NCBI RefSeq assembly: GCF_004115745.1
Contig: NZ_QXIL01000007.1
Coordinates: forward strand, 62,001 to 126,000
Reading direction: 5' to 3'
DNA length: 64,000 nucleotides
DNA from: Levilactobacillus suantsaii
Lineage (GTDB): Bacteria; Bacillota; Bacilli; Lactobacillales; Lactobacillaceae
Shown here piece by piece: positions 1,726 through 57,092 of the stretch. The first letter of the stretch is position 1; each line of letters starts with the position of its first letter. The notes below the pieces were generated by a model, which was not told the DNA's origin, did no database searches, and saw nothing but the letters and a program-made list of their open reading frames with translations. Both the position numbers and the translations under genes were made by a program.

Positions 1726-1855
1726 AAGTTTAAGGACTTCCGCGCATTTTTATCGCAGAAAATTCACACTCGCCCGCTAAAATGGGGATATTAAGTTAAA
1801 TTGCCCATGGGGCAAGTCGATAATGAGGAGGGTTAGCGCATTTACGCGCGAGACG

Positions 1856-3202
1856 ATGGCTGATAATAATAACAATAATAATCAAAATGATAATGCCCAA
1901 AATCAATTTGAGGATCAACAGCGATCAACGCCGGAGCAAACGCCGCGCCCCAAGAAACCACTGACCTTAACGAAGGTCGCCGTGACGGCAATCATTGCCG
2001 GATTACTTGGTGGTGGGGTCGCCTACGGTGGGGTATCCTATTTCAATAACAGTGGGTTGAACTCGACGGCGGTGCCGGCCGGGTCCAATAAGACGGGGAA
2101 CACCAAGACGTCGAACGTCACGGTCAACGTCAATAGCCAAGCCACTAAGGCCTTCAATCAGGTCAAGGGGGCGATGGTCTCCGTCATCAACCTACAAAAG
2201 GAAAGTAGTAACAGTACCTTAGGGGAGCTCTTCGGTCAGAGTTCATCGAATTCATCTAGCTCGAAATCGTCTTTGGAAGAAGCATCCGAAGGGTCCGGGG
2301 TCGTTTATAAGAAGAGCGGCAACACCGCCTACATCGTCACCAACAATCACGTGGTATCCGGATCTTCGGCACTGCGGGTCGTGACGAGTAGCGGCAAGCA
2401 GCTCCAGGCCAAGGTCGTCGGGAAAGATTCCGTGACTGACCTGGCCGTTTTGAAGGTCAACGGCTCGGCCTTAAAGACCGTGGCTTCATTTGGCAATTCC
2501 GATAAGATCAAGGTCGGCGAGACTGCCTTGGCCATCGGGTCACCATTAGGCAGTCAGTACGCGACGTCGTTAACGCAAGGGATCATCTCCGCTAAGAAGC
2601 GGACGATTGAAACCACGAACTCCGCGGGGACCCAGACAGGGAACGCCACGGTTATCCAAACCGATGCCGCGATCAACCCCGGGAACTCCGGTGGGGCGTT
2701 GATTAACGTCGGCGGTCAAGTCGTCGGGATTACCTCGTCGAAGATTGCCAGTGATACCGAAGGGACCAGCGTCGAAGGGATGGGCTTTGCCATTCCGTCG
2801 AACGAAGTGGTCAAAATCATCAATCAATTAGTCAAGAAGGGCAAGGTTGTGCGGCCTGCGTTAGGGATTACCTACGTGGATCTGACCAACGTCTCGAGTT
2901 CGCAACAAAAGTCCATTTTGAAGCTGCCATCTAGCGTGAATGAAGGGGTCGTCGTCATGAGTGCGTCGTCCGGATCACCAGCAAAGAAAGCTGGCTTGAC
3001 CAAGTACGATGTCATCACGGAATTGGGTGGCCACAAGATTACCAGCCAGTCCACGTTACGGGATATCCTGTACAAGTACAAGATTAACGATACGGTCTCG
3101 ATGACTTATTACCACAATGGTAAGAAGAAGACCACGAATGTCAAATTGACGGAAACCTCTTCACAGTTGAAGAGCACCACGAATTCTACGTCAGAAAGCT
3201 AA
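1856..3202 (+). CDS. htrA: HtrA/DegP-like membrane-anchored serine protease
   Basis: The protein is a surface quality-control protease with an Asn-rich cytoplasmic tail, one transmembrane segment (about residues 37-62), a trypsin-like domain and one C-terminal PDZ domain. The catalytic triad is visible as His165 (NNHVV), Asp195 (VTDLAVL) and Ser278 (GNSGG). It would degrade misfolded secreted proteins and fits its wal-operon position next to walJ and rlmH. The start is uncertain: ATG 1856 gives a typical N-terminus, but the strong AGGAGGG ribosome site is at 1826-1832, 23 bases upstream; an in-frame ATG at 1823 overlaps that site. A strong terminator follows. Confidence 0.95.
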   Translation: MADNNNNNNQNDNAQNQFEDQQRSTPEQTPRPKKPLTLTKVAVTAIIAGLLGGGVAYGGVSYFNNSGLNSTAVPAGSNKTGNTKTSNVTVNVNSQATKAFNQVKGAMVSVINLQKESSNSTLGELFGQSSSNSSSSKSSLEEASEGSGVVYKKSGNTAYIVTNNHVVSGSSALRVVTSSGKQLQAKVVGKDSVTDLAVLKVNGSALKTVASFGNSDKIKVGETALAIGSPLGSQYATSLTQGIISAKKRTIETTNSAGTQTGNATVIQTDAAINPGNSGGALINVGGQVVGITSSKIASDTEGTSVEGMGFAIPSNEVVKIINQLVKKGKVVRPALGITYVDLTNVSSSQQKSILKLPSSVNEGVVVMSASSGSPAKKAGLTKYDVITELGGHKITSQSTLRDILYKYKINDTVSMTYYHNGKKKTTNVKLTETSSQLKSTTNSTSES

Positions 3203-3587: not shown

Positions 3588-3915
3588 TGTGGATAACCTG
3601 TGGATAACTTTTTTCACAAAGTAAAATGGCCGGAGTAAAACGGGGGATAAATAAGCATGGTAGCGGTTATAAAGTTATCCACAGGTTGGCGAAAAAGATG
3701 GGGATAATTTTTAGTGATTGTGAAAAATGGTGCCATAAACGTTGATATGACAATGATTTTAATTGCCGTAACGAACAAACGTTTTTGTGGATAACTGTGG
3801 ATAAGTAAAAAAGGATTGACATTTGGCCAAAAAATAGATGTGGGGGCTAAGATCAAAACGACCCCCAATATCTGCTTACCGGTTGTGGACAACTTGTGGA
3901 TAACTTTGTGAATAA
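3588..3915. promoter_or_regulatory. DnaA-box cluster
   Basis: Six perfect copies of TGTGGATAA or its complement occur at 3588-3596, 3599-3607, 3675-3683 (minus orientation), 3786-3794, 3796-3804 and 3895-3903. Single-mismatch copies are at 3884-3892 (TGTGGACAA) and 3907-3915 (TGTGAATAA). Five of the perfect boxes and both variants point the same way, and pairs are spaced 10-12 bases apart start to start, near one helical turn. Such arrays bind DnaA cooperatively. There is no dnaA gene here, so this is more likely a DnaA-titrating or regulatory cluster than oriC. Confidence 0.85.
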
Positions 3916-4150
3916 ACTCTAAGAGGACCCGTCGTTTTGTCAGGTATCTGAGTAAGGTGTCTAACGGAAAAGTTCACAGATTATTAGCATTAGATTATGT
4001 TTAGACGCCGGTATGACGGGGTTAGACACTATTTCTGAATTGAACAGGGAAGTAGGCTAACGGGCTGCTGATCATATGGGCGGTAGAGGTCACTGGAAAA
4101 CGTCGCCAGAAATTACCGTGGTGGGTAACTGACGGGAACCTGTTGATAAA

Positions 4151-4166
4151 TGTTTCATGTGGAACA
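4151..4166 (+). other. parS: parS-like centromere site, one mismatch
   Basis: TGTTTCATGTGGAACA differs at one position from the ParB/Spo0J site TGTTTCACGTGGAACA that recurs perfectly elsewhere in the window. It is intergenic, between the DnaA-box cluster and rlmH. Confidence 0.65.
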
Positions 4167-4333
4167 TTGCGATAAGTGAGAGAAGCCACAGCTTAAAGCC
4201 TACGTTTCTACCCCCAGGGGTATCTAGAAAACGGGCCGTAGCGGCGATAATCGCTATCTGGTTCTGACGACGAGTTCAGGGTATAATGGGAATTGGTTGT
4301 TATGGAGAAACTAAAAACCACTGGTTATGCACC

Positions 4334-4342
4334 TGTGGATAA
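4334..4342 (+). promoter_or_regulatory. DnaA box just upstream of rlmH
   Basis: A perfect TGTGGATAA ends 20 bases before the rlmH start codon and just upstream of its ribosome site, where DnaA binding could affect rlmH transcription. It is 420 bases from the main cluster. Confidence 0.6.
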
Positions 4343-4361: not shown

Positions 4362-4841
4362 ATGAACATCAAGTTTGTCGTGGTCGGAAAGTTAAAAGAA
4401 AAGTATTTTAAGCAGGGAATCGCAGAGTACGCCAAACGGTTGTCCCGGTTCTGTAAGTTTTCCATTGTTGAGGTGCCAGACGAGAAAGCGCCGGAGAGTC
4501 TCTCGCAAGCGGAGATGGACCAGGTAATGCAAGCGGAAGGTGACCGGATCCTAGCAAAGATTAAGGACCGCGAGTATGTCTTTGCCCTAGCAATTTTGGG
4601 GAAAGAACGCTCCTCAGAGGAGTTTGCGCGGGAAATCAAGGATTTGACCACGTACGGGCACTCAGATTTAACCTTCGTGATTGGGGGGTCGCTGGGCTTG
4701 GCGCCGGAAGTCTTGAAGCGGGCTAACACGCAAATCTCGTTTGGGCGCTTCACCCTACCCCACCAGCTGATGCGGTTAGTTTTAACGGAACAAGTTTATC
4801 GTGCGTTTATGATCAACGAGGGGAGTCCGTATCATAAATAA
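4362..4841 (+). CDS. rlmH: 23S rRNA (pseudouridine-1915-N3)-methyltransferase RlmH
   Basis: This 159-residue SPOUT methyltransferase begins [16 protein letters not shown] and ends with the family's GSPYHK tail; the FVIGGSLG segment belongs to the SAM-binding trefoil knot. RlmH methylates pseudouridine 1915 in helix 69 of 23S rRNA on assembled 70S ribosomes. The ATG at 4362 is chosen because it gives the exact usual family length and has an AGGAGG ribosome site at 4351-4356; an upstream in-frame start at 4293 would add a non-homologous stretch containing the DnaA box. It closes the wal-associated gene block and is followed by a strong terminator. Confidence 0.97.
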
Positions 4842-6258: not shown

Positions 6259-6274
6259 TGTTTCACGTGGAACA
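6259..6274 (+). other. parS: parS centromere site, perfect
   Basis: TGTTTCACGTGGAACA is the exact complement of the Bacillus-type ParB site TGTTCCACGTGAAACA. It lies nine bases after the stop of the preceding secreted-protein gene. Confidence 0.92.
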
Positions 6275-6512: not shown

Positions 6513-8318
6513 ATGTTGAGTAAATGGGGAAAGTGGGCCACGATGGTCCTGATTGGGAGTAGTGTGGGCTTAATGACCACCACGGCACAGGCTAAGTCCA
6601 GTTATCGGATTACCAAGACCCAGCGTATCAATTGGACACCTTATCGGCTAAAAAATAGTAAGCAGATACGGTTTACTTGGGACAAGACCCACACCAACCG
6701 GATGTGTATCTTGAACCAATACGGGACGGGCTGGCTCGTTGATGCCAAAGTTACCATGACTCATGGGCATCACTCGGCGACCTACCTCCATATTCGTGAC
6801 TCGAATCGGGAGGTCGGTTATGTTTATGCCAAGGCAATGGTCAAAGGGTACCCCAAGAATTACCAAACGGATACCTCGCTTCGGAGTTACTACCGGTTTA
6901 ATGCAGCCACTAGGGTCGGTTTATCGGGTGGGGGAACGGTGACGTTGCCCAATGGGACCATCGTCCAGGGAACCATCAGTGCCAATCACGGTCAAGCGCT
7001 TCTGAATATCAATGAAGCGCGCCTAAGCTATCACTTGCGGCAACAGATTGGGTTGAAAGATACCCAAACTTTCAAAAAAATCGTGCTCGCTAAGACGGCT
7101 GCTACGGTTATTGACCAACCGAGTTACAGCACTGAGCAACACGCTGATGATGTTAATGCAGTCACGGATGAGGAGCTCTTTGCGGGGGACCCAGCTGCGA
7201 AAAAATTTCCCCAATTACTGCGGACGACCAGTGACGGCTACGTGGAATACTACGACAATGGTAGCGATCAGCGTTGGAATTTATATTTCCCTCAAGGTGA
7301 ACCGGTGAGTCAAAAGATTTTACGGGCCAGTAAATCTCATGGGAGGATCACGATTGCTTATCGTGACCACCTCAAGGGGCTGCGCGATACCCCCACCACG
7401 GTCGCGGGGGCCGCAGGGTATCAGTTGACTATCCAGAATCAACGGCAGATTCAAACGGTCGATGAAGACAGTTATGCCCGTTATCAAGTCGGTAATCAAC
7501 CGTTCTTTACATACCGGGGGGTAACTGATCCGCCCATCACGGCTAAAAAAATGAGTCCGCAAGCATTAGCCAAGCGGGTTCAGGCGGCGCCAAAGATGAC
7601 TTACTATCGCACGACCAGAACGCTACGGCTAAAGGCCCCATTTAATGCGTACACTTTCGGGACGTTACCAAAGACCATTACGTTACCTAAAGGAACGATT
7701 GTTGCTGGCAACTTGAACTATCGCTACCAAAAGGGCAAAAAAATCACCATAATGGAGGTGGCGACGAATCGGTTGAGCACCAAGCGCCTGACCCCCGGTT
7801 ACCGCGCGGGGTTATGGGCCAGTCTAGATACTGCAGAGGTCAAGCAATACTGGTCCTTTGCCCGGGTCGCGCGGCCGGCTTATATGCCCAAAAATAACAG
7901 TACGGGGGACCTGTATGTGGGGCGCTCGCCCTAAGCCATTCTCACGCGAAAGCTCGTCAAACGCAGTGCTAGAATCACTACCGATGGTTATGTGGAAATC
8001 CGGCAAAATACGCCGACCGATTGGTACGTGGAATGGGATGCGCAATATGGTAAGCCTAAGACATCAGTGAAGATTGAACGGACAACCATCAAGGGCCACA
8101 CTCGGTATCTGTATTTGGCCCAAAAGCTGAGCGGGTTCAAGACGCAGAAGGTCCATTACCACGGGAAAACTCAGTATCGGGTAGCTTTGTTCAATCCGCA
8201 AAAGGCCTACGCCGTCCAGTTTAATCTCGATGGGGATGCAGAAGGGCTTAAACCAAACGCTTATGGGGTCTTGGTCTTTGGGGGCCAGGCGGTTTATACG
8301 TCGTATAATCTAAAGTGA
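6513..8318 (+). pseudogene. Large secreted protein paralog A, interrupted by an in-frame TAA
   Basis: The frame opens at ATG 6513 (ribosome site AAGGGGAG) with a signal peptide ending TTTAQA and runs to a TAA at 7932-7934. It then continues in the same frame to 8318 with strong similarity to the C-terminal 120 residues of paralog B (9198-10936). At the stop, paralog B has Lys in a TKPIT context, so a single A-to-T change in a Lys codon explains the break. The intact form would be about 600 residues, with an N-terminal SH3-like secreted module (TWDKTHT, ATYLHIRD) and two TTSDGYVEYY-type segments. A 473-residue truncated product may still be made. Function unknown. Confidence 0.8.
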
Positions 8319-9197: not shown

Positions 9198-10936
9198 ATG
9201 TTAATTAAATGGGGAAGGTTAGCCACCACCGTGGCGTTTATCGGGGGCAGCGTGGGCCTGATGACCACCACGGCGCAGGCTAAGACCAGCTACCACATCA
9301 CCAAGACGCAGAAGATTGCCCGGACAGCTTATCACCTTAAAAATGATAAGCAGACGCGCTTTACTTGGGACAAGACCCACACCAAGCGGTTGTGGATTTT
9401 AAATCAGGTCGACAGCGCCCACCAGAAGATGACCTGGATGGCGGACGCCAAGGTCACCATGAAACATGGCAACAAGTCGGCAACTTATTTACATATTCGG
9501 GATGACTACGGCGGTGATGACGGGTACGTATACGCGAAGCCGATGGTCAAGGGGTACTCCAAAGGCTATCAAACGCGAAGGGGACCGTCATTCAAGGGAC
9601 CACCAGTGTCAGCAAGGGCCGGGAAACTTTGGCCATCAACGCCACGGCGTTGAGCTATCACCTGCGGCACCAACTGGGGATTGGCGACAAACAGACCTTT
9701 AAAGATGTCGCAGTACGTACGCTTAAGGCGACGCCCGTTGACCAACCGGCATACAGTACCGTGATGCACGATGACTTTGCGGATCTCACCGCGGCTAATC
9801 TGTTTAAGGGCACGTCGGCGCAGGAAAAACGCACGCAATTGTTCCGGACCACGAGTGACGGGTACGTCGAATACTACGACACGGGCACCAGTCAGAGGAA
9901 CGATACGGACTTACCGCAAGGGAAACCGGTGAGTCAGAAGATTTTGCGGACTAGTCAGGCACACGGCGTGGTCACAATGGCCTACCGGCACCACCTGAAG
10001 GGTTTGAAAGATACGCCCACCACGGTAAAGGGGGCTGCGGGGTACCAGTTGACTCTGCAGAAGCAAAAGCAGACGACCACCATCGGTTATGGCGTCTATG
10101 CCAACTACCGCGTCGGGGGCCAGTCGTTCTATGCGTACCAAGGACAAACGACGGGGTCGCCGGTTACAGCCAAGAAGCTCAGCGCTAAGGCGTTGGCCAA
10201 ACAGGTCAAGACTTCGCCCAAGATGACCTATTACCGCACCACCAAAAAGGTTCGCGTACGGGCACCGTTTGACGCGTACGTTTCCGGGACGCTAAAGAAG
10301 ACCATCACCTTACCGAAGGGGACCGTGGTGGCTGGCCAGGTAGTCAGCCAACGGCAACGAGGCAAGACGGTGAAGAGCATGCAAGTGGTCACGAATCGGT
10401 TGAGTACCAAGCGCCTCGCACCGGGGTACAAAAAGGGCTTATGGGCCGGTCAAGATGCCGCAACGACTAAGCATTACCAATCCTTTGCCCGGGTTAAGCG
10501 CCCCGCCTACATGCCGAAAAATGGGAGTGCGGGGGACCTGTATTTGGGAAGCTCGACCAAACCCATCACGGCGGGGAAACTGGCCAAACGGAGCGTGGTG
10601 ATCACCACCGATGGGTACGTGGAAGTCCACCACAACGATCCGGCTGGTCGTAAGACGGAATACCGGGCCAAGCCTAAGACGTCCGTGAAAATCAAGCGGA
10701 CCACCATCAAGGGCCACACACGCTACTTGTATCTGGCCAAGAAGTTGAGTGGTTTCAAGACCAAGAAGGTCCACTACCACGGGAAAGCCCAGTACCGTTT
10801 GGCACTGTTCAATCCGCAAAAGACCTACGCCGTCAATTTCGATCCCGATGGGGATGAAGACGGCAGTACGCCGGAGGACTTTGGCTTCTTGGTCTTCGGG
10901 GGCCAGTCGGTTTACACACCGTATGAGTTGGATTAA
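9198..10936 (+). pseudogene. Large secreted protein paralog B, frameshifted by an internal deletion
   Basis: ATG 9198 (ribosome site GAGGAGGGGG) begins a signal peptide and N-terminal module closely matching paralog A (TWDKTHTKR, ATYLHIRDD). After GYQT at about 9575 the frame changes. Homology resumes in the plus-two frame with AKGTVIQG, matching PNGTIVQG of paralog A. About 27 codons present in paralog A between these points are missing, so a deletion of roughly 80 bases that is not a multiple of three caused the frameshift. The downstream frame is open to 10936 and contains the complete C-terminus. The two paralogs were broken by different events. Confidence 0.8.
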
Positions 10937-15891: not shown

Positions 15892-15907
15892 TGCTTCACG
15901 TGGAACA
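15892..15907 (+). other. parS: parS-like centromere site, one mismatch
   Basis: TGCTTCACGTGGAACA differs at one position (C for T at base 3) from the perfect copies. It is intergenic and in the same orientation as the others. Confidence 0.7.
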
Positions 15908-18278: not shown

Positions 18279-18294
18279 TGTTTCACGTGGAACA
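18279..18294 (+). other. parS: parS centromere site, perfect
   Basis: TGTTTCACGTGGAACA between the CRISPR array and the 3' end of the MFS gene. Confidence 0.92.
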
Positions 18295-37701: not shown

Positions 37702-37717
37702 TGTTTCACGTGGAACA
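37702..37717 (+). other. parS: parS centromere site, perfect
   Basis: TGTTTCACGTGGAACA between the convergent ABC operon and TetR gene, directly after the terminator. Confidence 0.92.
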
Positions 37718-42991: not shown

Positions 42992-43048
42992 AAACACGAA
43001 TTAAAACCGTCATGGTTCATGCAACCATGACGGTTTTAATTCGTGTTT
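42992..43048. terminator. Bidirectional 26-bp hairpin terminator overlapping parS
   Basis: A perfect 26-base-pair inverted repeat (42992-43017 and 43023-43048) with a five-base loop lies between convergent genes. Its last five bases are the first five of the parS site at 43044. Confidence 0.9.
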
Positions 43049-43059
43049 CACGTGGAACA
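43044..43059 (+). other. parS: parS centromere site, perfect
   Basis: TGTTTCACGTGGAACA overlapping the right arm of a 26-bp hairpin. Confidence 0.92.
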
Positions 43060-57076: not shown

Positions 57077-57092
57077 TGTTTCACGTGGAACA
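57077..57092 (+). other. parS: parS centromere site, perfect
   Basis: TGTTTCACGTGGAACA four bases from the 3' end of the TauE gene. Confidence 0.92.

Follow-up and report, generated by a model that had tools for sequence, protein, structure and literature searches.

A dense cluster of DnaA boxes lies between htrA and rlmH

The window analysed here is a 64,000-nucleotide stretch of the Levilactobacillus suantsaii draft genome (contig NZ_QXIL01000007.1, positions 62,001 to 126,000 of the forward strand), and coordinates refer to it unless a contig is named. On its forward strand, htrA (1823..3202), an ORF whose product has trypsin-like and PDZ domains (Pfam PF13365 and PF13180), is the upstream neighbour of the interval studied, and rlmH (4362..4841), encoding a SPOUT methyltransferase (PF02590), is the downstream neighbour. 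The interval opens with the reverse-strand DnaA boxes A (3588..3596) and A' (3599..3607), both TTATCCACA, followed by a weak, poorly conserved box-like TTTTTCACA on the forward strand (3610..3618). Box B (TTATCCACA, 3675..3683) is the sole exact box in forward orientation; at +24 from it stands the reverse one-mismatch box C (TTATCCCCA, 3699..3707), and a second weak and poorly conserved TTTTTCACA occupies 3719..3727 on the reverse strand. Boxes D (3786..3794) and D' (3796..3804) are again reverse copies of TTATCCACA, and D is abutted by a candidate LexA/SOS-box-like dyad, CGAACAAACGTTTT, recognised by sequence match on the forward strand (3772..3785). A block that stands out as conserved in the genus alignment follows (3814..3873, +), with a TTGACA at 3816-3821 that might serve as a -35 element and an imperfect dyad, AGATGTGGGGG/CCCCCAATATCT. 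The cluster closes with three reverse boxes, namely a one-mismatch TTGTCCACA (3884..3892) that the three closest relatives do not share, box E (TTATCCACA, 3895..3903; +220 from B) and box E' (TTATTCACA, 3907..3915; +12 from E). One further exact box (4334..4342, -) lies 28 bp upstream of the rlmH ATG. A reverse-strand ORF spanning most of the cluster (3614-3892) was judged spurious by eye.

Exact matches to TTATNCACA start at 3588(-), 3599(-), 3675(+), 3786(-), 3796(-), 3895(-), 3907(-) and 4334(-). These are all eight matches of the 64-kb window, which fall within 3588-4342, seven of them within 3588-3915; 100 shuffles of the whole window gave a mean of 1.88 matches and a largest value of 7. 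Neither 200 dinucleotide-shuffled versions of the window nor 2000 shuffled versions of the intergenic region ever reached more than two exact boxes in 330 bp, where the real sequence has seven. Across the 70 contigs (2.43 Mb) of the draft genome, TTATNCACA has 58 exact matches, compared with 35 for a reversed-pattern control; eight of the 58 are at the cluster, and the genome-wide match list has no denser group of exact boxes, so that several consensus boxes stand here, outside oriC, beyond chance expectation. Allowing one mismatch to TTWTNCACA, the whole window yielded 88 matches against 112 expected; this looser matching shows no window-wide excess, and what stands out is that exact boxes cluster locally.

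On recount, the dense cluster described in the original prediction was confirmed, with its six TTATCCACA boxes recovered by exact-match scan and its 10-12 bp start-to-start spacings (3588/3599, 3786/3796 and 3884/3895/3907). One-mismatch boxes are also present as claimed, in a number of three rather than two when scored against TTATCCACA (3699, 3884 and 3907). By eye, the box spacings followed no simple rule of helical phasing. Searches of the window for a hidden RNA gene in Rfam (at gathering score) and for a plasmid origin by megablast against plasmids gave no match. Elsewhere in the window, two overlapping ORFs in different frames (9198-10936) jointly resemble, by eye, a paralogue at 6513-7934 and possibly represent a frameshifted copy.

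The cluster is origin-proximal and has no dnaA beside it

The absence of a nearby dnaA, noted originally, holds for the window but not for the contig. A domain match places dnaA at C68:27377 and the cluster occupies C68:65588-65915 of the same contig, about 37-39 kb away. The oriC region has four exact boxes upstream of dnaA and two after it. A third small group, of three exact boxes, was seen about 10 kb from dnaA (C68:37900-38157; L004:17900-18157), following three short same-strand ORFs that resemble rpsF-ssb-rpsR. With what we take to be the parS consensus, exact parS-like sites were found in the window at 6259-6274, 18279-18294, 37702-37717, 43044-43059 and 57077-57092, and one-mismatch sites at 15892-15907 and, between the cluster and rlmH, at 4151-4166 (TGTTCCACATGAAACA, -; present as TGTTTCATGTGAAACA in relatives G005, G013 and G014). 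Exact parS-like places number eight on contig C68, on both sides of dnaA, and two on other contigs.

A dense group of boxes could also mark a cryptic second origin or a copied fragment of oriC. Like a bacterial oriC, the cluster combines dense DnaA boxes with a nearby unstable stretch: the least stable 51 bp beside it, starting at 3953, equal oriC in instability. It differs in having no adjacent dnaA and, among the BLAST matches listed, no sequence shared with oriC beyond box-like segments of at most 27 bp. The DnaA C-terminal domain (PF08299) has a single match in the genome, and the second, partial match to PF00308 is on contig C44, far from the cluster. Moreover, most genomes of the genus have E' about 30 bp away from rlmH, so that the unstable stretch at 3953 is not conserved. 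A scan for DnaA-trios found none at the cluster and none at oriC either, and is hence uninformative. We consider a second origin extremely unlikely and rejected a duplicated oriC beside a second dnaA, which the original prediction had named as a counter-reading.

The cluster recurs at rlmH across Lactobacillales and in part of the other Bacilli

A search of 118 genomes including that of L. suantsaii, one of which (G006) had no rlmH match, gave the rlmH neighbourhoods of 116 relatives, which with the window make 117 Lactobacillales loci. The 3 kb upstream of rlmH were scored as carrying a cluster when any 400 bp of them held at least three exact boxes. By this measure, 91 of the 117 loci carry one, including 34/34 in the genus and 61/70 in the family, and 45 of 63 genera do so by their median; many of these genomes are drafts and all are related, which makes the counts non-independent. 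Related genomes lacking boxes at this place, the finding that would have spoken against a positional element, were thus not the rule. Elsewhere in the fetched loci, three boxes per 400 bp were reached in one of 116 (G081). Pairs of boxes matched more than 100 times in the 118 genomes against 6 for the reversed control, many rows being at dnaA or rlmH among the matches listed.

Outside the order, 22 of 60 further loci of the class, selected from 145 rlmH-containing genomes so that families were represented, reached three boxes and 38 stayed below. Another 29 loci of the class, counted from the list, included nine that reached three upstream of rlmH and two (L153 and L173) that did so downstream. 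A Bacillus RlmH query gave 575 candidate loci; among the best 80, a set biased to near relatives of Bacillus, 59 had a cluster. In B. tequilensis, B. mojavensis and B. halotolerans, found with this query, boxes lie at about -354, -320, -140 and -47 from rlmH, the last with one mismatch. Loci with no cluster include those of Brevibacillus (L332), Halobacillus (L326), Thalassobacillus (L314), Oceanobacillus (L328) and Metaclostridioides (L329), and some deeper Bacilli, such as G120 and G176, have rlmH near dnaA and no boxes. Across the other Bacilli sampled, the cluster is common to only a minority. Taken together, the cluster was probably present in the common ancestor of Lactobacillales and Bacillaceae.

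Upstream of rlmH in three genomes (G079, G092 and G106; loci L114, L127 and L141) we saw, by eye, a short YyzF-like CxxC ORF, with box D apparently inside or at the edge of its coding sequence.

Box order and spacing are fixed within the genus

Genomes of the genus share an arrangement with a single forward box, B, between reverse boxes: A on one side and C, D, E and E' on the other. The B-E distance is 218-220 bp in 34/34 genomes (searched over 214-226), A-B is 86-87 bp in 32/34 (searched over 80-92; 87 in the window) and a box-like E' stands at +12 from E in 33/34. Boxes B and E are identical to those of the window in all 33 relatives and A in 32, compared with 7 for D', 3 for D (G005, G013 and G014) and 3 for E', as exact TGTGAATAA; D, D' and E' often appear as one-mismatch forms where they are not identical. 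G005, G013 and G014 are the three nearest relatives and share with the window, unchanged, every one of the seven exact boxes of 3588-3915 as well as box C. Identity of the intergenic region to that of the window is at most 58%, and among the other 33 genomes its median is 67% (49-96%).

The A-B-E pattern was found in 43 of the 118 genomes (33 in the genus) and never with the reversed control; 42 of these matches are at rlmH and one (G097) is near dnaA. Over the whole order, the spacing histogram is modestly above control, the best forward-reverse distance being shared by 11 genera (control maximum, 8) and the best reverse-reverse distance by 18 (control, 12). Because the order-wide signal exceeds its control only modestly, we claim a fixed spacing for the genus and the named genomes, not for every family. 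Constraint on the promoter-like block and the dyads, rather than on DnaA, could also produce such fixed spacing.

The array is kept where it has been separated from rlmH

In B. subtilis as well as the lactobacilli, the gene next to the cluster is rlmH, whose B. subtilis orthologue we take to be yydA. The boxes might form a DnaA-responsive control region for rlmH transcription, conserved through gene regulation. E' begins 29-30 bp upstream of the rlmH start codon in 29 of the 34 genomes of the genus, several other genera and the Bacillaceae also have boxes about 30-50 bp before rlmH, and the TTGACA and dyad block between D and E would place boxes on both sides of a plausible promoter. PMC4447404 likewise refers to the B. 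subtilis site as the promoter region of yydA. Against this, the TTGACA block was not among the hits of our promoter scan, and in several lineages the array is independent of rlmH. In the window and in G005, G013 and G014, E' starts 455-553 bp before the rlmH ATG with the geometry kept, the window array being displaced by about 425 bp relative to most of the genus. Furthermore, six genomes (G076, G110, G096, G103, G074 and G048) have the array between convergent 3' ends. In the first four its neighbours are htrA on one side and a convergent ohr on the other, followed by ohrR and rlmH; these genes were assigned by Pfam for G076 and by eye for the others. G076 keeps spacings of 87, 122, 96 and 13. 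Another convergent gene adjoins the array in G074 (trkA-like, by eye) and in G048. Genes also separate the array from rlmH in G109, where the neighbours are not convergent. The array has remained with rlmH in G065, G067, G044 and G104, where the separation occurred on its other side. As the array survives separation from rlmH, even between convergent 3' ends, it is not merely the rlmH promoter. These displaced and convergent arrays weaken a pure promoter reading, and we regard conservation through control of rlmH as unlikely.

In several genomes, additional matches to the 3' end of rlmH occur near or away from the full gene (L042:391-5199 in G007; also partial matches in G009, G031, G017 and G046). 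Between the two rlmH matches of G007 stands a gene for an Eco57I-type restriction methylase. Staphylococcal SCC elements insert at the 3' end of rlmH, and the extra matches suggest insertion at the same place here.

A LexA-like dyad abuts box D

The candidate dyad beside box D was called with a consensus that we assume to be that of LexA. CGAACAAACGTTTT has the CGAAC-N4-GTT form also found before lexA in the L. suantsaii genome, and the motif recurs at the start of, or just before, addB, a dnaE-like gene and a metallophosphoesterase gene that is presumably sbcD-like. A composite DnaA/LexA switch could be imagined, in which the SOS state would alter DnaA occupancy or nearby transcription through the dyad; joint control by DnaA and LexA is described for E. 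coli uvrB (PMC6015884). In the genus alignment, the half-site columns of the dyad are largely conserved with a variable spacer, and the exact 14-mer occurs in none of the 33 relatives. Among the 96 loci with at least three exact boxes in 3 kb, which are not independent, 62 have, within the span of the cluster, a dyad that matches 8/10 positions or better; about 11 would be expected from the rest of the loci and 8 from shuffles. Not all 62 are next to D. Dyads scoring at least 0.8 were absent from the three B. subtilis-group loci and from 14 of the 22 loci scanned overall; the best dyad scores 7/10 in G013 and G014 and lies elsewhere in G005. Moreover, the genome as a whole shows no enrichment of the motif, which matches 23 times where the reversed control matches 50 times, and most of the other sites are inside ORFs. 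Of ten site-adjacent proteins searched, the remainder were guanylate kinase, an FGGY kinase, MraZ, MraW, a LysM protein and one without a match, which are not SOS genes. We therefore treat the dyad as a lead and not as a result, and such a switch as very unlikely. A broader version places a LexA-like operator, in lactobacilli, within a conserved, spacing-constrained DnaA platform that would predate the divergence of Lactobacillales from Bacillaceae; through this operator, DNA damage would alter the amount of DnaA held and delay replication rounds. This version seems to us quite unlikely.

Separately, a perfect LexA-like palindrome, CGAACAAGTGTTCG, was observed just before mraZ-mraW (site 1501 of L350; C55:66283).

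Clusters are more often absent where rlmH is far from dnaA

Where rlmH is within 110 kb of dnaA, 24 of 29 genera have the cluster, compared with 4 of 11 beyond that distance (Fisher p 0.008; without cluster, 5/29 and 7/11, respectively), with the cut-off chosen post hoc, the genomes related to one another and 23 of the 63 genera left out for want of a distance. Counted by genome, clusters were found in 55/65 within 110 kb and in 5/13 beyond, leaving out the 39 of 117 genomes that have rlmH and dnaA on different contigs. G043 illustrates the trend: its htrA and rlmH are still neighbours, at about 1.09 Mb from dnaA, and boxes are absent. Exceptions run both ways: the cluster is kept far from dnaA in G074 (401 kb), G091 (266 kb), G037, G104 and G109, and G042 and G062 have only one or two exact boxes per 400 bp near dnaA. 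Distance from dnaA is thus an imperfect predictor of cluster presence.

Discussion

The reading that we favour, with moderate confidence, is that 3588-3915 is an origin-proximal nucleoprotein element that sequesters DnaA, the lactobacillar counterpart of the B. subtilis cluster at yydA/rlmH. DnaA would load cooperatively on the ordered array A< B> C< D< E< E'<. Lying about 37 kb from oriC, the array would be duplicated very soon after initiation, and the duplicated array would leave less free DnaA for re-firing. DnaA binding, sequestration and the effect on timing are here extrapolated from work on B. subtilis. There, deletion of six clusters causes early initiation, which is partly relieved by restoring one, and the effect is strong only when the six are removed together (PMC5295017); early initiation after removal of the six is also given in PMC13220808, and both sources cite Okumura et al. 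2012 on B. subtilis DnaA-box clusters (DBCs).

Little is known about how initiation is controlled outside E. coli and B. subtilis. In the papers covered by our literature search, we found no DnaA-box element beside rlmH reported outside B. subtilis. Known before was the B. subtilis site; the conservation of an rlmH-side cluster in Lactobacillales and part of the Bacilli is new. One place across many Bacilli and one geometry across a genus imply that at least this cluster has long been under selection. The 328-bp array offers a small, defined target for studying DnaA sequestration in lactobacilli, with natural variants in which its link to rlmH or to the origin is broken.

Two known systems invite comparison. 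E. coli datA is, similarly, a non-coding locus of DnaA boxes, and it lowers initiation; it differs in acting with IHF and promoting hydrolysis of DnaA-ATP (PMC5295017). The closer parallel is B. subtilis. The original prediction pointed to a DnaA-box cluster beside the rlmH orthologue of that species, and correctly: a strong DnaA-binding region in vitro, number 8, lies upstream of yydA and downstream of yyzF, with seven boxes per 300-bp window (PMC4447404). The two sites share the neighbouring gene, the origin side and several TTATNCACA boxes, and positions near -140 and -45/-32 recur in many of the listed Bacillaceae and in lactobacilli. They differ in box orientation: lactobacilli have B near -262 on the forward strand and D on the reverse, whereas the box near -140 is forward in most Bacillaceae listed. 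A further difference is that the cluster of the window has no yyzF-like CxxC ORF among ORFs of at least 25 aa. Our results support the original view of one positional element shared by B. subtilis and lactobacilli, with titration as its presumed function. Judged by place and box content, the rlmH-side cluster can be assigned to the same kind as the DnaA-box clusters of B. subtilis.
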